From a virus: 20,266 bases of DNA. Made by a program: the position numbers and the translations under genes. Shown one piece after another: positions 5,035 through 19,045 of this stretch. Position 1 is the first letter of the stretch, and every line of letters starts with the position of its first letter. The stretch is taken from positions 1-20,266 of IMG/VR virus record IMGVR_UViG_3300023196_003382; one strand, written 5' to 3'. The notes beneath the pieces were generated by a model that was given only the letters and a program-made list of their open reading frames with translations, had not been told where the DNA came from and ran no database searches.

Positions 5035-5042
5035 TATTTATA
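5035..5042 (-). promoter_or_regulatory. T4-type late promoter TATAAATA
   Basis: On the minus strand this reads TATAAATA, identical to the T4 late promoter -10 consensus recognised by the gp55-type late sigma factor with gp33 and the sliding clamp. It lies in an intergenic gap, 31 bases before the ATG of the probable structural protein at 5004, which is a normal late-leader length. It immediately follows the hairpin at 5042-5066. Confidence 0.7.
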
Positions 5043-5293: not shown

Positions 5294-7096
5294 TTATTTT
5301 GGAAGTCCTTTTGTTCCTGCTCTCAGATCAGCATAATATCTCTTTAGAGCATCTGTAAACTGTGGATCACCAGGTTTGTAGTCTAATCTATCAACTGGTT
5401 GTGGTCCTGCAAAAGACGGTCTACCTTTTTCCACATTTCTCTGCATTGCTTGAGCAGATGCTTCGCGAGCATTACGATCACTAACAGCACGAGGATCTAA
5501 ATTATTCAATCTAGTTTTTTCTCTGGCAGCAGCGCGAGTGGCATCATTTGTCTTTGATGCAGCAGTACTCTTATTGAGTTTCTGAAGAGATTGATTTGCT
5601 TTATCTTGATAAAGTCTTAGTGCTCCAATATCACCAGAACCAAGTGTTTTCTTTTTACCGCCTCTAGTTATTACATTTTTAACAACCTCAGCACCTTTTC
5701 TTACAAGGTTTTTAGAACCAGGTATCCTCCTTATAACCTTTTGACCAAGATTAATCAAAGTGCCAAGACCTTCTTCAAGTTCTTGTCTTTGATTTTCATT
5801 TAAATTGTCAATGGCATCAAAAATCTGATCTTCAGAATAACCTTCTTCAATAAGAGAATCAGTAACCATTATCATTGCTTCACCATAAAGACTTACTGGT
5901 TCCATTTTACCAGTCATCTTGTCAATCTTTATGAAGGATGCAGTTGCCATCTTCTCATAACTCTTTTCGGAATCCTCTCCAGTAGTAGCAAGAACTCTCT
6001 TACCCATTGATCTCAACTTATTTTTAAGAACTTCACGATAAGTTTTATCGGCTCTCATGTCCTTCTTTTCCTTATCTTCAGGACCACAATCTCCGCCCAT
6101 ACCTTCAGAAACAGAATCGGGACATTCCTTAGTACCATGTACCGAACATTCTTCACCTTTACCGTTATGGACGCATGAATCCAATTTCTTTTTCTCGGCA
6201 ATCATCTCCATCAAACGACGTTGTGAAGCAGTCATCTCAACTTCAATATGAGCATAAATTCCTTTACGTACCTTTGGATTAGGGTCAGCACTATTTTCGG
6301 GCATTACCGTAATAATGCCGGTTGAATAATTATCAATACTTTTACCAGTAATCTTACCTTTGTTTTGACCTTCAGTTGAAGTAGTTCCATCTACAAGGAA
6401 ATCTTCACTCATACCTTTCTTCTTAGCAATCGCTGCATTAATTGCATCGCGACGATTGTAGATATAATTATCAGTTTTATTTTTTACACCATCATTATTT
6501 ACATCACCATCTCTTACCGATGGATTCTTAGCAACAGGATCCATTCCAATTTTCTTACTACGCTCACCGACAGGTTCACCATGTTCAGTCATTTCAACCT
6601 TAAGACCTTTTTCTCTTAAAGCAGTGATCTTTGCACGGTCGGCATATCTTACATAGGTGCGACTAGTTTTCTCATCAGTAACTCTTACCTTATATTTTCT
6701 ATCTGCACTTTCATCTTCATAAACAAATTCTTGCTCTTCCGAATCTTCAACAAAGACTTTAAACATTGCATTGGCAATTGAGGTAGTTGCACCATTAGTC
6801 ATTAATGGGGTATAAGATTCTTTCTTCTCACCACCACCACCATCGTTACCAAATAGTTTTGCTCTAACTGCTGATTGTTCAGGAGCACTCAGATTACTAT
6901 TCTGCATATACTGAGCATATGCTGCTCTCAGGTCAACACCCTCTCTTCTTGCACGATAACGAATATCGTATACTGCTTGGCGGATTCTTTTCTCAGAACC
7001 TTCAGCACCACCACTGTCAGAACCTTTTGCAGCAACAGGTGCTACTGCAGGGGCGTTCTTACGTGCTGGAAGCTCTTCAAATATCTTTTTAGTCAT
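5294..7096 (-). CDS. Large multidomain cyanophage protein with a dockerin-like Ca-binding loop (probable particle protein)
   Basis: A 600-residue hydrophilic, low-complexity protein. Visible modules: a disordered N-terminus; a conserved basic helix RIRQAVYDIRYRARR (38-51) running to KLFG (80-83), a block I recall from other cyanophage proteins; a beta-rich segment (111-180); a loop D198-V-N-N-D-G-V-K-N-K-T-D209, which fits the dockerin/EF-hand pattern D-x-N-x-D-G-x-x-N-x-x-D and is followed by a helix; a Cys/His cluster with C308-V-H310, C317-S-V-H320, C325 and C337; a segment around 385-425 with SLYGEAMIMVTDSLIEEGYS; and a basic, Ala/Arg-rich tail. No enzyme motif is seen. A late promoter (7135-7142) 38 bases upstream and the adjacent structural gene suggest a virion or scaffold role, which is inference. 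The ATG at 7096 has only a distant AAGGA. MTKK is the first Met in the frame. Confidence 0.85.
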   Translation of the reverse strand: MTKKIFEELPARKNAPAVAPVAAKGSDSGGAEGSEKRIRQAVYDIRYRARREGVDLRAAYAQYMQNSNLSAPEQSAVRAKLFGNDGGGGEKKESYTPLMTNGATTSIANAMFKVFVEDSEEQEFVYEDESADRKYKVRVTDEKTSRTYVRYADRAKITALREKGLKVEMTEHGEPVGERSKKIGMDPVAKNPSVRDGDVNNDGVKNKTDNYIYNRRDAINAAIAKKKGMSEDFLVDGTTSTEGQNKGKITGKSIDNYSTGIITVMPENSADPNPKVRKGIYAHIEVEMTASQRRLMEMIAEKKKLDSCVHNGKGEECSVHGTKECPDSVSEGMGGDCGPEDKEKKDMRADKTYREVLKNKLRSMGKRVLATTGEDSEKSYEKMATASFIKIDKMTGKMEPVSLYGEAMIMVTDSLIEEGYSEDQIFDAIDNLNENQRQELEEGLGTLINLGQKVIRRIPGSKNLVRKGAEVVKNVITRGGKKKTLGSGDIGALRLYQDKANQSLQKLNKSTAASKTNDATRAAAREKTRLNNLDPRAVSDRNAREASAQAMQRNVEKGRPSFAGPQPVDRLDYKPGDPQFTDALKRYYADLRAGTKGLPK

Positions 7097-7111: not shown

Positions 7112-8386
7112 TTACGATTTCCTTATCTTATATTTATTTATAAAGTCCCTTCCGCTAGACATATTAGATCCCGGAACCATAGATTCAACATATTTTAGAT
7201 GTGATTTTGTTCCAACTAAACGTTTTTCTGCTGGAACACCACCCACTTCAGTTCCATTCACAATTGCCTCATTTACATCCTTAATCCATGACTTAAACAT
7301 AATCTTATCTTCAGTTACGCAAATCAGATGATTAGCACCTCTACGAATAATACGTCCAATGAGACCAGTATTCATATTTTCAACTAATTGACCAATGTTA
7401 AAGATAGTCTTAGATATATAATTTTCACGAAGAGTTTGTTGATCAAACTTGGGTGCCATTTCCCAAATACCCCATTCTTCATTAATACCCATCGATGCAC
7501 GGACTGTATTAAACAATTCTCTTGCATCTTTTGGTCTCATAGCATCAGGCATTGCCATCTTAAAAGTTCTGAAATCATTTTCAGATGCAGCAAGTCTTAA
7601 TCTTGACGCTGACATTCCTTCAACACCATCGGCATCAGGATCTCTATCACCGGCAGATAACACTTCAACATTATCAAACTGATAAAGAGTGCCATTATAA
7701 TTATTAGCGAGTTTATCAAATTCCCTTACTCTATCAGCACCACCAACAATTCTTACGTTTGCATATCCATCATTATGTGCTTTTTTTAGAACATCAAAAA
7801 TGGTTCTAGTATTTTGATCATTTTGAATTCTTGAACTATGTTGAGGGAACATCCCTCTCATGAATGCAACCTTTGTATCAGCATCCAAAGGATTCTTCTT
7901 AGGATCATTTGAACGTGAAGGGACAATCATATAGTCACTTTCTTCTGCTTCTGCAGAGGCAGCAGCAGTATCCATCAACTGTTGGTGACCAGCATGTGGC
8001 GGATTGAATCTACCAAAAGCAATAGTCAAAGTTCCTCTTGTTTTGGGAACTGGTGGAGGACCTGTCTCCAATTCTGGACTAATATTTAAAGTCTGTTGTT
8101 GCTGCGGTTCAGGTGCTGCCTGTTGCTCAGGAGGAACTTCCTGTTGCTGTAAACCAGGATCTATAAAATTTGGATCAGAAACATTTTTTTCAAGATCAGT
8201 TTGATTAGGATCATCTTTACCAACCTTCTGACGCTTATTATAAAACTTTAGTCTTCCTTTTTCAGTTTTTGCTACAAACTCTCCAGTTCCACGATCATAC
8301 CATCCACCATGACCATCACCTTGAAGTCCAAGACGTTTTGCCTGTTGAGTTGCGGATTCACCTAAAAATTGAAAAAAACTTTTCAT
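7112..8386 (-). CDS. HxGH nucleotidyltransferase (cytidylyl/adenylyltransferase superfamily) with capsid-targeting-like N-terminus
   Basis: A 424-residue multidomain protein. Residues 1-12 (MKSFFQFLGESA) resemble the amphipathic capsid-targeting peptides of T4 internal head proteins and include L8-G-E10, which fits the LxE/IxE site cut by the gp21 prohead protease. Residues 23-50 hold a GDGHGGWYDRGTG module, followed by a Gln/Pro-rich linker (79-114). The catalytic domain starts at 119 with TIAFGRFNPPHAGH; H131-A-G-H134 is the HxGH nucleotide-binding motif, and M258-SASRLR resembles the C-terminal SSTxxR signature. This fold transfers NMP from an NTP to acceptors such as NMN, pantetheine or phosphocholine; the acceptor here is unknown. 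The C-terminal GRIIRRGANHLICV (344-357) resembles a small beta-barrel module. The start overlaps the previous stop as ATGA. Enzyme superfamily is firm; packaging in the head is inference. Confidence 0.85.
   Translation of the reverse strand: MKSFFQFLGESATQQAKRLGLQGDGHGGWYDRGTGEFVAKTEKGRLKFYNKRQKVGKDDPNQTDLEKNVSDPNFIDPGLQQQEVPPEQQAAPEPQQQQTLNISPELETGPPPVPKTRGTLTIAFGRFNPPHAGHQQLMDTAAASAEAEESDYMIVPSRSNDPKKNPLDADTKVAFMRGMFPQHSSRIQNDQNTRTIFDVLKKAHNDGYANVRIVGGADRVREFDKLANNYNGTLYQFDNVEVLSAGDRDPDADGVEGMSASRLRLAASENDFRTFKMAMPDAMRPKDARELFNTVRASMGINEEWGIWEMAPKFDQQTLRENYISKTIFNIGQLVENMNTGLIGRIIRRGANHLICVTEDKIMFKSWIKDVNEAIVNGTEVGGVPAEKRLVGTKSHLKYVESMVPGSNMSSGRDFINKYKIRKS
7135..7142 (-). promoter_or_regulatory. 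T4-type late promoter TATAAATA
   Basis: The minus strand reads TATAAATA, an exact match to the T4 late consensus, within the last codons of the nucleotidyltransferase gene and 38 bases before the ATG of the 600-aa protein at 7096. Distance and orientation suit that gene, and the surrounding run AAATAAATATAAG is very AT-rich. Confidence 0.65.
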
Positions 8387-8598
8387 TGATATCTATTTCT
8401 ACGTAGTTCTAAGACGACATTCCGCTTATTGGAAACAATATAATTCAAAATATCATTCCGTATCTTTATATATTTATTCTTTTGTTTGCCTTTGCTTATA
8501 TCAATTTCGCGTTGAAATGTTTGATGAATGTATCTAATGAACTGTTCATAATTAGTTCCTTTATAATTAGCAACTAATTCGGAAATGTAAGAATTCAT
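8383..8598 (-). CDS. Small basic helical protein, 71 aa (unknown)
   Basis: A 71-residue protein from the ATG at 8598 (MNSYISELVANYKGTNYEQF). It is rich in Lys, Arg, Asn and Tyr, predicted mostly helical, and ends VVLELRRNRYQ. No motif is recognised. The open frame extends ten codons to a TTG at 8628, but that start has no support and would place the CATAAATA element inside the coding region, so the ATG is preferred. Its stop overlaps the nucleotidyltransferase ATG as ATGA, implying coupled expression. The basic character could suit nucleic-acid binding, which is inference. Confidence 0.65.
   Translation of the reverse strand: MNSYISELVANYKGTNYEQFIRYIHQTFQREIDISKGKQKNKYIKIRNDILNYIVSNKRNVVLELRRNRYQ
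8471..8478 (-). promoter_or_regulatory. Candidate late promoter AATAAATA (one mismatch)
   Basis: The minus strand reads AATAAATA, one base off the T4 late consensus, inside the 71-aa gene and about 85 bases before the nucleotidyltransferase ATG at 8386. It would allow late expression of that gene separately. Such AT-rich octamers arise by chance, so support is limited. Confidence 0.3.
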
Positions 8599-16840: not shown

Positions 16841-17602
16841 TTAATGATATCGGTATTTGAGTGCATCATAGTTTTGTTTAACTTCTTCAGCAGATAAAAC
16901 TTTTTGATATGCAGACACGTATGATATAAGTCCACCAAAATTCATGGTGCTTTGGGGAATACCAAGATTTTTACTTCTTCCTATAGTTTTACTTCCATTA
17001 CTTAAATTAGCACTAGAAGGTCCATCATTAGTACCAGAACTCTGGCCAACAAATTCACCATTCACATATTGTTTATATGTATAATAGCTACCATCATGAT
17101 CTCGAATCATTACAGCATTATACCAGATATTAGGATCAAAAACAAAAGGAGCTGTCCAAAATGTAGTGTCATTACCAATTCCACTTTGACCATCGCTCGC
17201 TATTCTCATTTTTTCTTTACCAAACAAATAAATCAAAAGACAAAAGTCATTAGCAGTATCATTTCCTATCAATGTCATATAATCGGATGTATCATCATGT
17301 TTGAACCAAAAAGTTGTACTAAAACTCTTTATTGGACTATTAGGATCAAAAAACTCATCCTCAAAAGAAACATGGTCTCCAGATCCAAACTGTATTGCCC
17401 CTAAGTTACCAGAATCATAACTAGCTCCACTGTCTAAAGTTCCAGAATTGGGACCACCCCAATTTGGATATGCAATTTCTCGAGAATCTCCAGTAGAGTT
17501 CCAAGTAGTAGCACTAGGACCAGAAAGAGATTTTGGATTAGCAGCATCTACTAAAAAAACAAGTTTATCAGTAGATACTTTAGGATTATACTCAACTGAC
17601 AT
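16841..17602 (-). CDS. LamG-like (concanavalin A fold) structural protein 1, 253 aa
   Basis: The most divergent of three tandem LamG-like jelly-roll proteins. It starts MSVEYNPKVSTDKLVFLVDA, has the shared opening LVDAANPKSL, the strand block YDSGNLGAIQFGSGDHVSFE (about 62-81), FSTTFWFKHDD, IWYNAVMIRDHDG followed by YVNGEFVG, and the C-terminal VSAYQKVLSAEEVKQNYDAL. This order is that of laminin-G/pentraxin-like lectin domains, seen in phage fibre and decoration proteins that contact host surface sugars. No signal peptide. Translation starts eight bases after a strong AGGGAGG that lies inside the previous gene. Which particle part it belongs to is unknown. Confidence 0.8.
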   Translation of the reverse strand: MSVEYNPKVSTDKLVFLVDAANPKSLSGPSATTWNSTGDSREIAYPNWGGPNSGTLDSGASYDSGNLGAIQFGSGDHVSFEDEFFDPNSPIKSFSTTFWFKHDDTSDYMTLIGNDTANDFCLLIYLFGKEKMRIASDGQSGIGNDTTFWTAPFVFDPNIWYNAVMIRDHDGSYYTYKQYVNGEFVGQSSGTNDGPSSANLSNGSKTIGRSKNLGIPQSTMNFGGLISYVSAYQKVLSAEEVKQNYDALKYRYH

Positions 17603-18300
17603 TATACATACCTCCCTTTAAATGCATTGTAGTTTTGCAGAACTTCTGCTGCTGTGAGTCCTTTGTTGTATACTTTCGCAATTGACAATTTTCCAGAATA
17701 ATACCAAACGTTTGGTTGAGGAGCCACAAAAGATCCGATGTGAAAACCTGCATCAGTTATATTCATAATCCAATCAGTAATACTAAGAGTACTACTTGCA
17801 ATTGATGAACCATTTTTATATAAAACACATGCACCAGTAGATCTTACACAAGTGACTGCAAAATTTTGCCAAACATTATCAAGAACAAAATTACTAGATG
17901 ATGATAAACTATCACCACTTGTCCCATTACCAACTCTAAATATCAATTTCCTATCGGTAGTATCAACAGTATTAGCAAAAAACGCAAATCCACTATTCGA
18001 CCCACCACTACTAATAAAAGTATTCCTATTTGAATCTAAAGCTGGATTCACCCAAAAAGAAAGTGAAACTCCAGTTCCAGTGCTTAGATCATTGGGAAAA
18101 TTAATATAGTCATTTCCACCATCAAAAGACAAAGATCCACCATCATCAGAACTAAAAGTTGGTCCATATTTAGTTCCATTATTACTACCAATCAAGTCAT
18201 TACATTTAAATCCACTGCCGAGATAAGACTTAGTATTTCCTGCATCAAATGCGAATAAAAGTCCATCAGTTACAATCCTTGGAGAATGTGCTAGTGCCAT
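17602..18300 (-). CDS. LamG-like (concanavalin A fold) structural protein 2, 232 aa
   Basis: Second LamG-like protein: opening IVTDGLLFAFDAGNTKSYLG, strands GGSLSFDGGNDYINFPND (about 54-71), VSLSFWVNP, VWQNFAVTCVRSTGACVLYK followed by NGSSIAS, and the C-terminal SIAKVYNKGLTAAEVLQNYN then AFKGRYV. The last 16 codons are nearly identical in DNA to those of protein 3. A short SD-like AGGGAGG at 18309-18315 in the previous gene drives its start. Its stop overlaps the next ATG as TAATG. Probably a virion adhesin or decoration; an exact role cannot be assigned from sequence. Confidence 0.85.
   Translation of the reverse strand: MALAHSPRIVTDGLLFAFDAGNTKSYLGSGFKCNDLIGSNNGTKYGPTFSSDDGGSLSFDGGNDYINFPNDLSTGTGVSLSFWVNPALDSNRNTFISSGGSNSGFAFFANTVDTTDRKLIFRVGNGTSGDSLSSSSNFVLDNVWQNFAVTCVRSTGACVLYKNGSSIASSTLSITDWIMNITDAGFHIGSFVAPQPNVWYYSGKLSIAKVYNKGLTAAEVLQNYNAFKGRYV
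17608..17657 (-). repeat. 50-bp direct repeat, copy B (C-terminal codons of LamG protein 2)
   Basis: This segment encodes the TAAEVLQNYNAFKGRY end and matches 18306-18355 at 49 of 50 bases, the one difference being AAA versus AGA (Lys/Arg). It contains the AGGGAGG ribosome-binding site of the next gene (17611-17617). Identity at silent positions suggests recent duplication or gene conversion. Confidence 0.85.
17611..17617 (-). promoter_or_regulatory. Shine-Dalgarno AGGGAGG embedded in the LamG 2 C-terminal codons
   Basis: AGGGAGG on the minus strand is formed by the codons for Lys-Gly-Arg at the C-terminus of protein 2 and lies eight bases before the ATG at 17602 of protein 1. It is one of the best ribosome-binding sites in the window. 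Confidence 0.8.
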
Positions 18301-18302
18301 TA

Positions 18303-19019
18303 TTAATACCTCCCTCTAAATGCATTGTAGTTTTGCAGAACTTCTGCTGCTGTGAACCCTTTTCCATTGTATATTCGAATAGCAGACATATTTCCACCAA
18401 TATGATAATTCTGGCCAGGGTTGGAACCAAGTGAGAATTCTCCAATAGCAAGTTTAGTACCCGCAGATAAAGTTCCCGAATAACTTTCTGATCCTCTACT
18501 TACCTTATCAATATAATAGTTAATCGTAGATCCATTTCTAACAACAACATGTTGATGCCAATCATTATCAAAAGAATCAATTCCAGATGTTGTAAATTTA
18601 ATAGCAGCAATACCATCAACACCATTACGCACCCATATCATATTTCCTGTCGATCCATCTGATTCTGCTTGAATTGCCCACTTCCTCTGGGATTCAGATC
18701 CTCCAGAATGATTTTCTAAGAAAACTGCATAGTTTTGCTGCTGACCACCCTTAAACCAAAACTCTATTGTAAAATCTCCACTAAAACCACCTAAAGCAGA
18801 AGCATTAGAAATTGTAGCCTGATCATTTATTCCATCAAAAATAAAATACCCACCGTTGTCTGAATTATATGTAGGACCGTATTGCAACGTTGCATCATTA
18901 CCTTTGCCACTCAGATCAGTCCAAGTGGTTCCGCTAACAGGATAACTTTTAGTGTTAGCTGCATCAAGGCATAACACTAGCCCATCTTCAATTATATTTG
19001 GTCCTGCAAATCCTGCCAT
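18303..19019 (-). CDS. LamG-like (concanavalin A fold) structural protein 3, 238 aa
   Basis: First transcribed of the three LamG-like proteins. It starts MAGFAGPNIIEDGLVLCLDA and has AANTKSYPVSGTTWTDLSG, strands GGYFIFDGINDQATISN (about 56-72), FTIEFWFKGG, WHQHVVVRNGSTINYYID and the C-terminal SAIRIYNGKGFTAAEVLQNY then NAFRGRY. The order fits a laminin-G/concanavalin A jelly-roll as in cyanophage fibre-associated proteins. A late-type AATAAATA element (19038-19045) lies 18 bases upstream and a weak AAGAAAAG precedes the ATG, consistent with late structural expression. The adjacent genes are metabolic, so this is a late cassette inserted among purine genes. Confidence 0.85.
   Translation of the reverse strand: MAGFAGPNIIEDGLVLCLDAANTKSYPVSGTTWTDLSGKGNDATLQYGPTYNSDNGGYFIFDGINDQATISNASALGGFSGDFTIEFWFKGGQQQNYAVFLENHSGGSESQRKWAIQAESDGSTGNMIWVRNGVDGIAAIKFTTSGIDSFDNDWHQHVVVRNGSTINYYIDKVSRGSESYSGTLSAGTKLAIGEFSLGSNPGQNYHIGGNMSAIRIYNGKGFTAAEVLQNYNAFRGRY
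18306..18355 (-). repeat. 50-bp direct repeat, copy A (C-terminal codons of LamG protein 3)
   Basis: Matches 17608-17657 at 49 of 50 bases and encodes the TAAEVLQNYNAFRGRY end of protein 3. It carries the AGGGAGG site for protein 2. The equivalent end of protein 1 is clearly related in protein but not in DNA. Confidence 0.85.
18309..18315 (-). promoter_or_regulatory. Shine-Dalgarno AGGGAGG embedded in the LamG 3 C-terminal codons
   Basis: AGGGAGG on the minus strand is made by the Arg-Gly-Arg codons at the end of protein 3 and sits eight bases before the ATG at 18300 of protein 2, the same spacing as at 17611-17617. Confidence 0.8.
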
Positions 19020-19037
19020 TATATATTACTTTTCTTA

Positions 19038-19045
19038 TATTTATT
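19038..19045 (-). promoter_or_regulatory. Late-type promoter AATAAATA before the LamG cassette
   Basis: The minus strand reads AATAAATA, one mismatch from TATAAATA, overlapping the stop codon of the upstream gene and ending 18 bases before the ATG at 19019. Position at the head of a structural cassette supports late transcription. Confidence 0.5.

Follow-up and report, generated by a model that had tools for sequence, protein, structure and literature searches.

A T4-type N-terminal tag suggests that a cyanophage HxGH nucleotidyltransferase is packaged in the phage head

An HxGH nucleotidyltransferase of T4-like cyanophages begins with a ten-residue tag of the T4 capsid-targeting type, and from its sequence we consider it likely that the protein is a late-made, adenylyltransferase-like enzyme that this tag addresses to the head, where it is packed and from which it is probably injected. 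The suggestion that the nucleotidyltransferase is packaged in the head was made in the original prediction, and it gains support from the conservation of the tag and from four homologues detected in virions, all of which are tagged. For this particular protein we infer packaging, cleavage, injection, activity and substrate. In the proposed course of events, the enzyme would be expressed late during infection, and its first ten residues would serve as a T4-type capsid-targeting sequence, with the aromatic residue at position 4 and Phe7 binding the prohead core. After cleavage behind Glu10 (LGE↓SA) by a prohead protease of the gp21 type, the enzyme would be free amid the packaged DNA. It would probably enter the cyanobacterium along with the DNA and pass a nucleotide on to a small molecule; AMP taken from ATP is the most likely one.

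The window, the whole stretch of 20,266 bases that was analysed, is an IMG/VR record of a T4-like cyanophage, and the phage is known only from this 20-kb fragment. The open reading frame (7112..8386; minus strand, like all features of the gene and its neighbour given below) starts with ATG and encodes 424 residues. On the minus strand the gene order gp43, uvsX, gp41, mazG, target gene, gp61, nrdA is that of Prochlorococcus phage P-SSM2, and the closest named relative, P-SSM2_194 (annotated as 'cytitidyltransferase'), is 68.9% identical over the full length. The protein matches PHROG 395 (E=4.5e-100) and scores above the cut-off for Pfam CTP_transf_like (PF01467; 32.3 bits versus 21), and relatives occur in 530 phage records. 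By sequence family and neighbourhood the ORF is the cyanophage core 'cytidyltransferase' T4-GC190 / PHROG 395, a gene present in 16/16 cyanophages in a 2010 comparison (PMC3037559). P-SSM2_194, S-SM1_190, S-SCSM1 NMNAT, SSZBM1_140 and SCREM2_gp154 are the same gene, with the same tag and catalytic motifs in a similar neighbourhood; members of the family vary in the DGHG module and the linker. The sequence features on which the packaging idea was first built, namely MKSFFQFLGESA, H131-A-G-H134, SASRLR at 259-264, GDGHGGWYD and RRGANH, were each located where the prediction had placed them. The next gene (5294..7096) encodes 600 residues; its N-terminal part resembles P-SSM2_195 (T4-GC191), and it has a short match to S-SCSM1 gp280, which is annotated as a virion protein.

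Residues 1-10 (MKSFFQFLGE; 8357..8386) form the tag, as judged by homologue alignment and by comparison with T4 IPII/IPIII. The same ATG start and the tag MK.F..F[LIQ] were found in 80/80 IMG/VR homologues. The next methionine of the window protein is M138, within the catalytic domain, so that no plausible start codon downstream of the tag was found. Among 65 distinct N-termini, M1, K2, F4 and F7 are invariant, F4 and F7 having zero entropy. Position 8 is L or I and position 10 is E in 61/65 each, positions 3, 5 and 9 vary freely, and the [L/I]xE site at 8-10 (LGE in the window protein) is likewise kept in 61/65, with FQE one residue earlier in the others. The anticipated conservation of an F-x-x-F-L-x-E pattern is thus borne out. 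The tag is far beyond chance: in a permuted-motif test covering 1.4 Mb of ORF starts at other loci, with the target gene family left out, the motif occurred at 20 candidate starts, whereas the 239 permuted motifs averaged 1.7 and 0/239 reached 20.

The N-terminus of T4 IPII and IPIII reads MKTYQEFIAEA. In T4, the first ten residues of IPIII are enough for incorporation into the head, targeting depends chiefly on residues 4 and 7, and gp21 processing depends on residues 8 and 10 (PMC9026906). The conserved positions of the cyanophage tag, judged by alignment, are those that matter in T4 IPIII: the likeness consists of an N-terminal peptide with an aromatic residue 4, Phe7, [LI]8 and Glu10. The match at residues 4, 7, 8 and 10 bears out the earlier view of this N-terminus as a T4-like capsid-targeting peptide with an LxE site. 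As a positive control, the tag expression was run on 49 kb of T4 and recovered only gp24, gp2, ipII and ipIII, of which gp24 and the internal proteins are established as core proteins or substrates of gp21 (PMC9026906). T4 IPI, IPII, IPIII and Alt go into the prohead core and are delivered at infection, and their mature parts are mutually unrelated (PMC9026906, PMC3012670). In the cyanophages, by contrast, the payload is an HxGH nucleotidyltransferase, for which cleavage and delivery would follow the T4 pattern. Our search of the open-access literature for cyanophages together with capsid targeting returned only a review on T4, where the word 'cyanophage' is confined to the title of a reference, and no description of the tag of the T4-GC190 / PHROG 395 family was found in the literature retrieved. 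Virion association and the T4 tag had each been described before; their combination and the wide range of tagged payloads appear to be new within the open-access literature searched.

A homologue of the gp21-type prohead protease is encoded by P-SSM2, S-SZBM1 and the complete genome G001, the P-SSM2 and G001 proteins being relatives of the S-SZBM1 protease by sequence comparison; the window is a fragment without head genes. The site that reads FLTE↓A in T4 gp23 is LTE↓A or LSE↓A in cyanophage major capsid proteins. By analogy, the 424-residue protein would be cut after Glu10; the virion mass-spectrometry papers on four homologues do not report a processed N-terminus. In a 231-kb contig (L092, G001:97501-117500), tblastn revealed many in-frame stops in the major capsid and protease genes, probably assembly errors.

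A sister clade (clade 2), 34-39% identical, is devoid of the DGHG module and the linker and keeps the tag as MRF..FI.EA; from these sequences, the tag evolves apart from the adjoining module. This module (DGHG.WYD...FVAKT.KG.LKFYNK; residues 11-55, 8222..8356) is predicted to form short beta strands and is followed by a Gln/Pro-rich linker (residues 56-112, 8051..8221) of low model confidence, whose length varies among relatives. The DGHG module also occurs on S-H34 homologues and on two virion proteins of S-CREM2, gp12 (PHROG 3561) and the kinase-like gp14, where it is found twice. Its presence on other virion proteins suggests that it accompanies packaged proteins and does not belong to nucleotidyltransferase chemistry, so that it would be an accessory of such proteins rather than a substrate selector. 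The RRGANH-containing module (residues 330-375, 7262..7399) is a predicted small beta unit, SH3/KOW-like by eye, that is retained in both clades; it is delineated by alignment, model strands and matches to phrog_4808 and phrog_22379. The original prediction assigned the choice of target to the extra modules. A target-choosing role is not supported, and for the DGHG module its occurrence on kinase-like and PHROG 3561 virion proteins and its absence from clade 2 speak against one.

Members of the family have been detected by mass spectrometry in purified virions of S-SM1 (PMC3037559), S-SCSM1 (PMC9602691), S-SZBM1 (PMC9146016) and S-CREM2 (gp154; PMC10665884). All four are tagged: MKKFSAFLNEAE, MKSFLQFLKEAA, MRFRQFIIEAV and MKNFSSFLTEAD, respectively. 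For S-SCSM1 and S-CREM2, the authors considered that the enzymes could be contaminants (PMC9602691, PMC10665884), and the protein could be an abundant late cytoplasmic enzyme that contaminates virion preparations, with an N-terminus that serves another purpose. We regard this as highly improbable, since four independent virion studies found the family, the protein carries the T4 tag, the tag outlives the loss of the adjacent module in clade 2, and tagged proteins are enriched among the non-structural ORFs detected. In S-CREM2 virions, 5/6 tagged non-structural ORFs were detected versus 23/181 untagged ones (p=3e-4); this value is post hoc, the motif having been refined after its initial form gave p=0.02. 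The tagged and detected proteins are gp6 (SAM-lyase family), gp13, gp14 (kinase-like), gp136 and gp154. A loose motif, accepted in any register within 25 residues, showed no enrichment among S-CREM2 virion proteins (p=0.37), and the small tagged proteins 191 and 192 of S-SZBM1 are absent from its reported virion list. Earlier virion studies found enzymes in cyanophage particles without dividing cargo from contamination; the tag, mapped in T4, is evidence for packaging that is independent of virion mass spectrometry, and it makes the question testable.

The S-CREM2 virion proteins gp6, gp12, gp13 and gp14 have related N-terminal tags, and gp12 and gp14 have DGHG-type modules; the main domains of gp6, gp12 and gp14 are unlike the nucleotidyltransferase and belong to the SAM-lyase family, PHROG 3561 and a kinase-like type, respectively. 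The virion protein gp6 (L195:3837-5081; PF23780 SAM-lyase family) starts with MKDFDSFLEEF and is a candidate packaged anti-restriction enzyme, in parallel to T4 IPI. For gp12 (L113:3878-6487, L114:3884-6817), annotated as Cas9-like, we found no Pfam match and a match to PHROG 3561, and the Cas9 name is doubtful; a tag-like FASFMAEA lies at about residues 18-25.

The tag is also found on many proteins of other kinds. When IMG/VR viral contigs were scanned at the DNA level for MK[ST]F..F..E[AST], 76 of the 80 matches listed opened an ORF of at least 50 residues, and the remaining 4 ran into contig ends. After removal of the tag, the at least 76 tagged ORFs fell into at least 33 unrelated clusters or families. 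These lower bounds come from the matches listed for a single tag pattern, and tag frequency was controlled by the permuted-motif test on other loci rather than in the same contig collection. Profiles among the tagged ORFs include GNAT acetyltransferase, methyltransferase (just under the cut-off), DUF6267, DUF5661 and a weak NTP_transf_2. In complete genomes, 3/303 (G001), 3/307 (P-SSM2) and 3/194 (S-SZBM1) ORFs are tagged, and the tag follows 0/695, 0/1000 and 1/667 internal methionines, respectively; one of the G001 matches, MILGGFIREY, may be due to chance. As judged from sequence, the tag is portable across unrelated mature proteins. The combination of an enzyme, a tag and flanking modules, initially thought unusual, is therefore not so, similar tags being borne by many unrelated proteins of these phages.

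A different reading of the tag is that the protein is a core or scaffold component, which enters the prohead and aids assembly or DNA packing and for which catalysis in the next host is not the purpose. T4 IPIII does affect head morphogenesis (PMC9026906), and the place of the gene in the core shared by 16/16 cyanophages compared in 2010 would suit such a function. Against it, the active-site motifs are invariant in both clades and several unrelated enzyme types occur among the tagged proteins, which argues for enzyme delivery and leaves the structural role unlikely. Since the same tag is found on dozens of unrelated proteins, such phages probably inject a set of ready-made enzymes with their DNA. 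In its broadest form, a view towards which we lean with less assurance than towards packaging of the nucleotidyltransferase itself, marine T4-like phages would use one interchangeable ten-residue tag, equivalent to T4 capsid targeting, for filling their heads with dozens of unrelated proteins, among them nucleotidyltransferases, kinase-like proteins, SAM lyases, acetyltransferases, methyltransferases and many of unknown kind, and the delivered payload could be read from a genome by the tag alone. For abundant ocean viruses, about whose early takeover of the host little is known, the tag would offer a way to list candidate injected proteins, and it could suggest where many proteins of unknown function are likely to be located.

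Several further observations concern tagged or tag-like proteins. Two small tagged proteins (L222:3736-4149 and L213:10529-11047) have a YHGT-type motif reminiscent of the folds of ADP-ribosyltransferases or RNA 2'-phosphotransferases, possibly in parallel to T4 Alt; a weak match to phrog_5470 was obtained for the former only, not the latter. The N-terminal part of phrog_455 matches tagged DUF6267 proteins and its C-terminal part matches this nucleotidyltransferase, which suggests a fusion of two tagged families. Tag-like sequences end S-SCSM1 gp279 (TFKEFLEYIE), S-CREM2 gp12 (TFRDFLN) and S-SZBM1_178 (FHEFLQSL), perhaps a C-terminal core-binding version.

The putative payload domain (residues 113-302, 7481..8050) is assigned an NMNAT/NadD/PPAT-like HxGH nucleotidyltransferase fold from PF01467, the structure model, Foldseek and VIA-align. 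Its [HT]xGH motif is H131-A-G-H134 (7985..7996), and SASRLR (residues 259-264, 7595..7612) is its ISSTxxR-type motif. Residue 131 is H or T in relatives, and G133, H134, S259, S261 and R264 are invariant in both clades. The model has a mean pLDDT of 73 with a confident domain at 117-301, for which the best Foldseek matches are NadD, PPAT, NMNAT and FAD synthetase. VIA-align Z scores for residues 117-301 range from 12.5 to 14.5 (PPAT 14.5, NadD 13.0, NadM 12.8; 2.7-3.4 A), the lead of PPAT being little above the tie margin of 1. The predicted domain thus bears out the expected nucleotidyltransferase, with a modelled fold nearer to adenylyltransferases (PPAT, NadD, NadM) than to cytidylyltransferases. 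Bacterial NadD/NMNAT and CoaD (PPAT) share the Rossmann-type fold, [HT]xGH and an SxSxxR-type motif with the phage protein, which differs in its 11-18% identity to them, its N-terminal tag and module, and its C-terminal beta module.

No significant match emerged when the sequence was searched against solved structures. All NCBIfam matches are under the cut-off and mostly of NMNAT or NadD type; scores were 24.7 versus 341 and 23.8 versus 240 bits for the NadR and NadD equivalogs, and 13.9 versus 103.3 bits for PPAT/CoaD (TIGR01510), the latter having the best fold Z of 14.5. The enzyme contains a GGxDR motif, which by eye looks more like the NadD/NMNAT pattern than the PPAT one. On the model, the predicted enzyme is tentatively an adenylyltransferase of the NMNAT/NaMNAT kind, a possibility that we place somewhat short of even, and a PPAT-like or another adenylyl acceptor ranks next; as acceptor, NMN or NaMN, which would rebuild NAD, is slightly favoured over phosphopantetheine. 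The Pfam name CTP_transf_like and the legacy annotation would instead suit a protein that is packaged as proposed and is a genuine cytidylyltransferase that works on precursors of lipids or the wall, for instance one of the glycerol-3-phosphate type. The fold matches listed (NadD, PPAT, NMNAT, FAD synthetase) all belong to the adenylyltransferases, with no glycerol-3-phosphate cytidylyltransferase among them, and the NCBIfam matches are mostly of NMNAT or NadD type; we accordingly find this version of the packaged enzyme rather improbable, and cytidylyl transfer by the modelled domain has a similarly small chance.

Late synthesis of the proposed adenylyltransferase-like cargo is suggested by an ATAAATA box of late-promoter type at 8471..8477 (minus strand), ~90 nt upstream of the start and inside the upstream ORF, recognized from its position in relatives and from synonymous-codon constraint. 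The sequence [AG]ATAAATA resembles the T4 late promoter. It lies 86-92 nt upstream in 78/81 clade-1 loci versus 6.3% of control windows, and the nominal p-value for this position is overstated because the loci are related. The codons of the upstream ORF that form the box are near-fixed: Lys is AAA in 77/77, versus 53% elsewhere, and Tyr is TAT in 75/77. Such near-fixed synonymous codons point to constraint on the box at the DNA level. Over the whole window, ATAAATA occurs about as often as expected by chance, and weight is given only to the conserved position and the codon choice. In clade 2 the box is upstream of the gene in only 2/53 loci, and a box follows the stop codon in 32/53.

Other ATAAATA boxes of the window, at 5035-5041, 7131-7141 and 19038-19044, lie just upstream of other minus-strand genes, and two of them adjoin genes related to or near virion genes; those at 7131-7141 are associated with the 600-residue gene. 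At 16841-19019, the window contains three tandem paralogues of ~230-250 residues that by eye resemble fibre or adhesin proteins of the LamG/concanavalin type.
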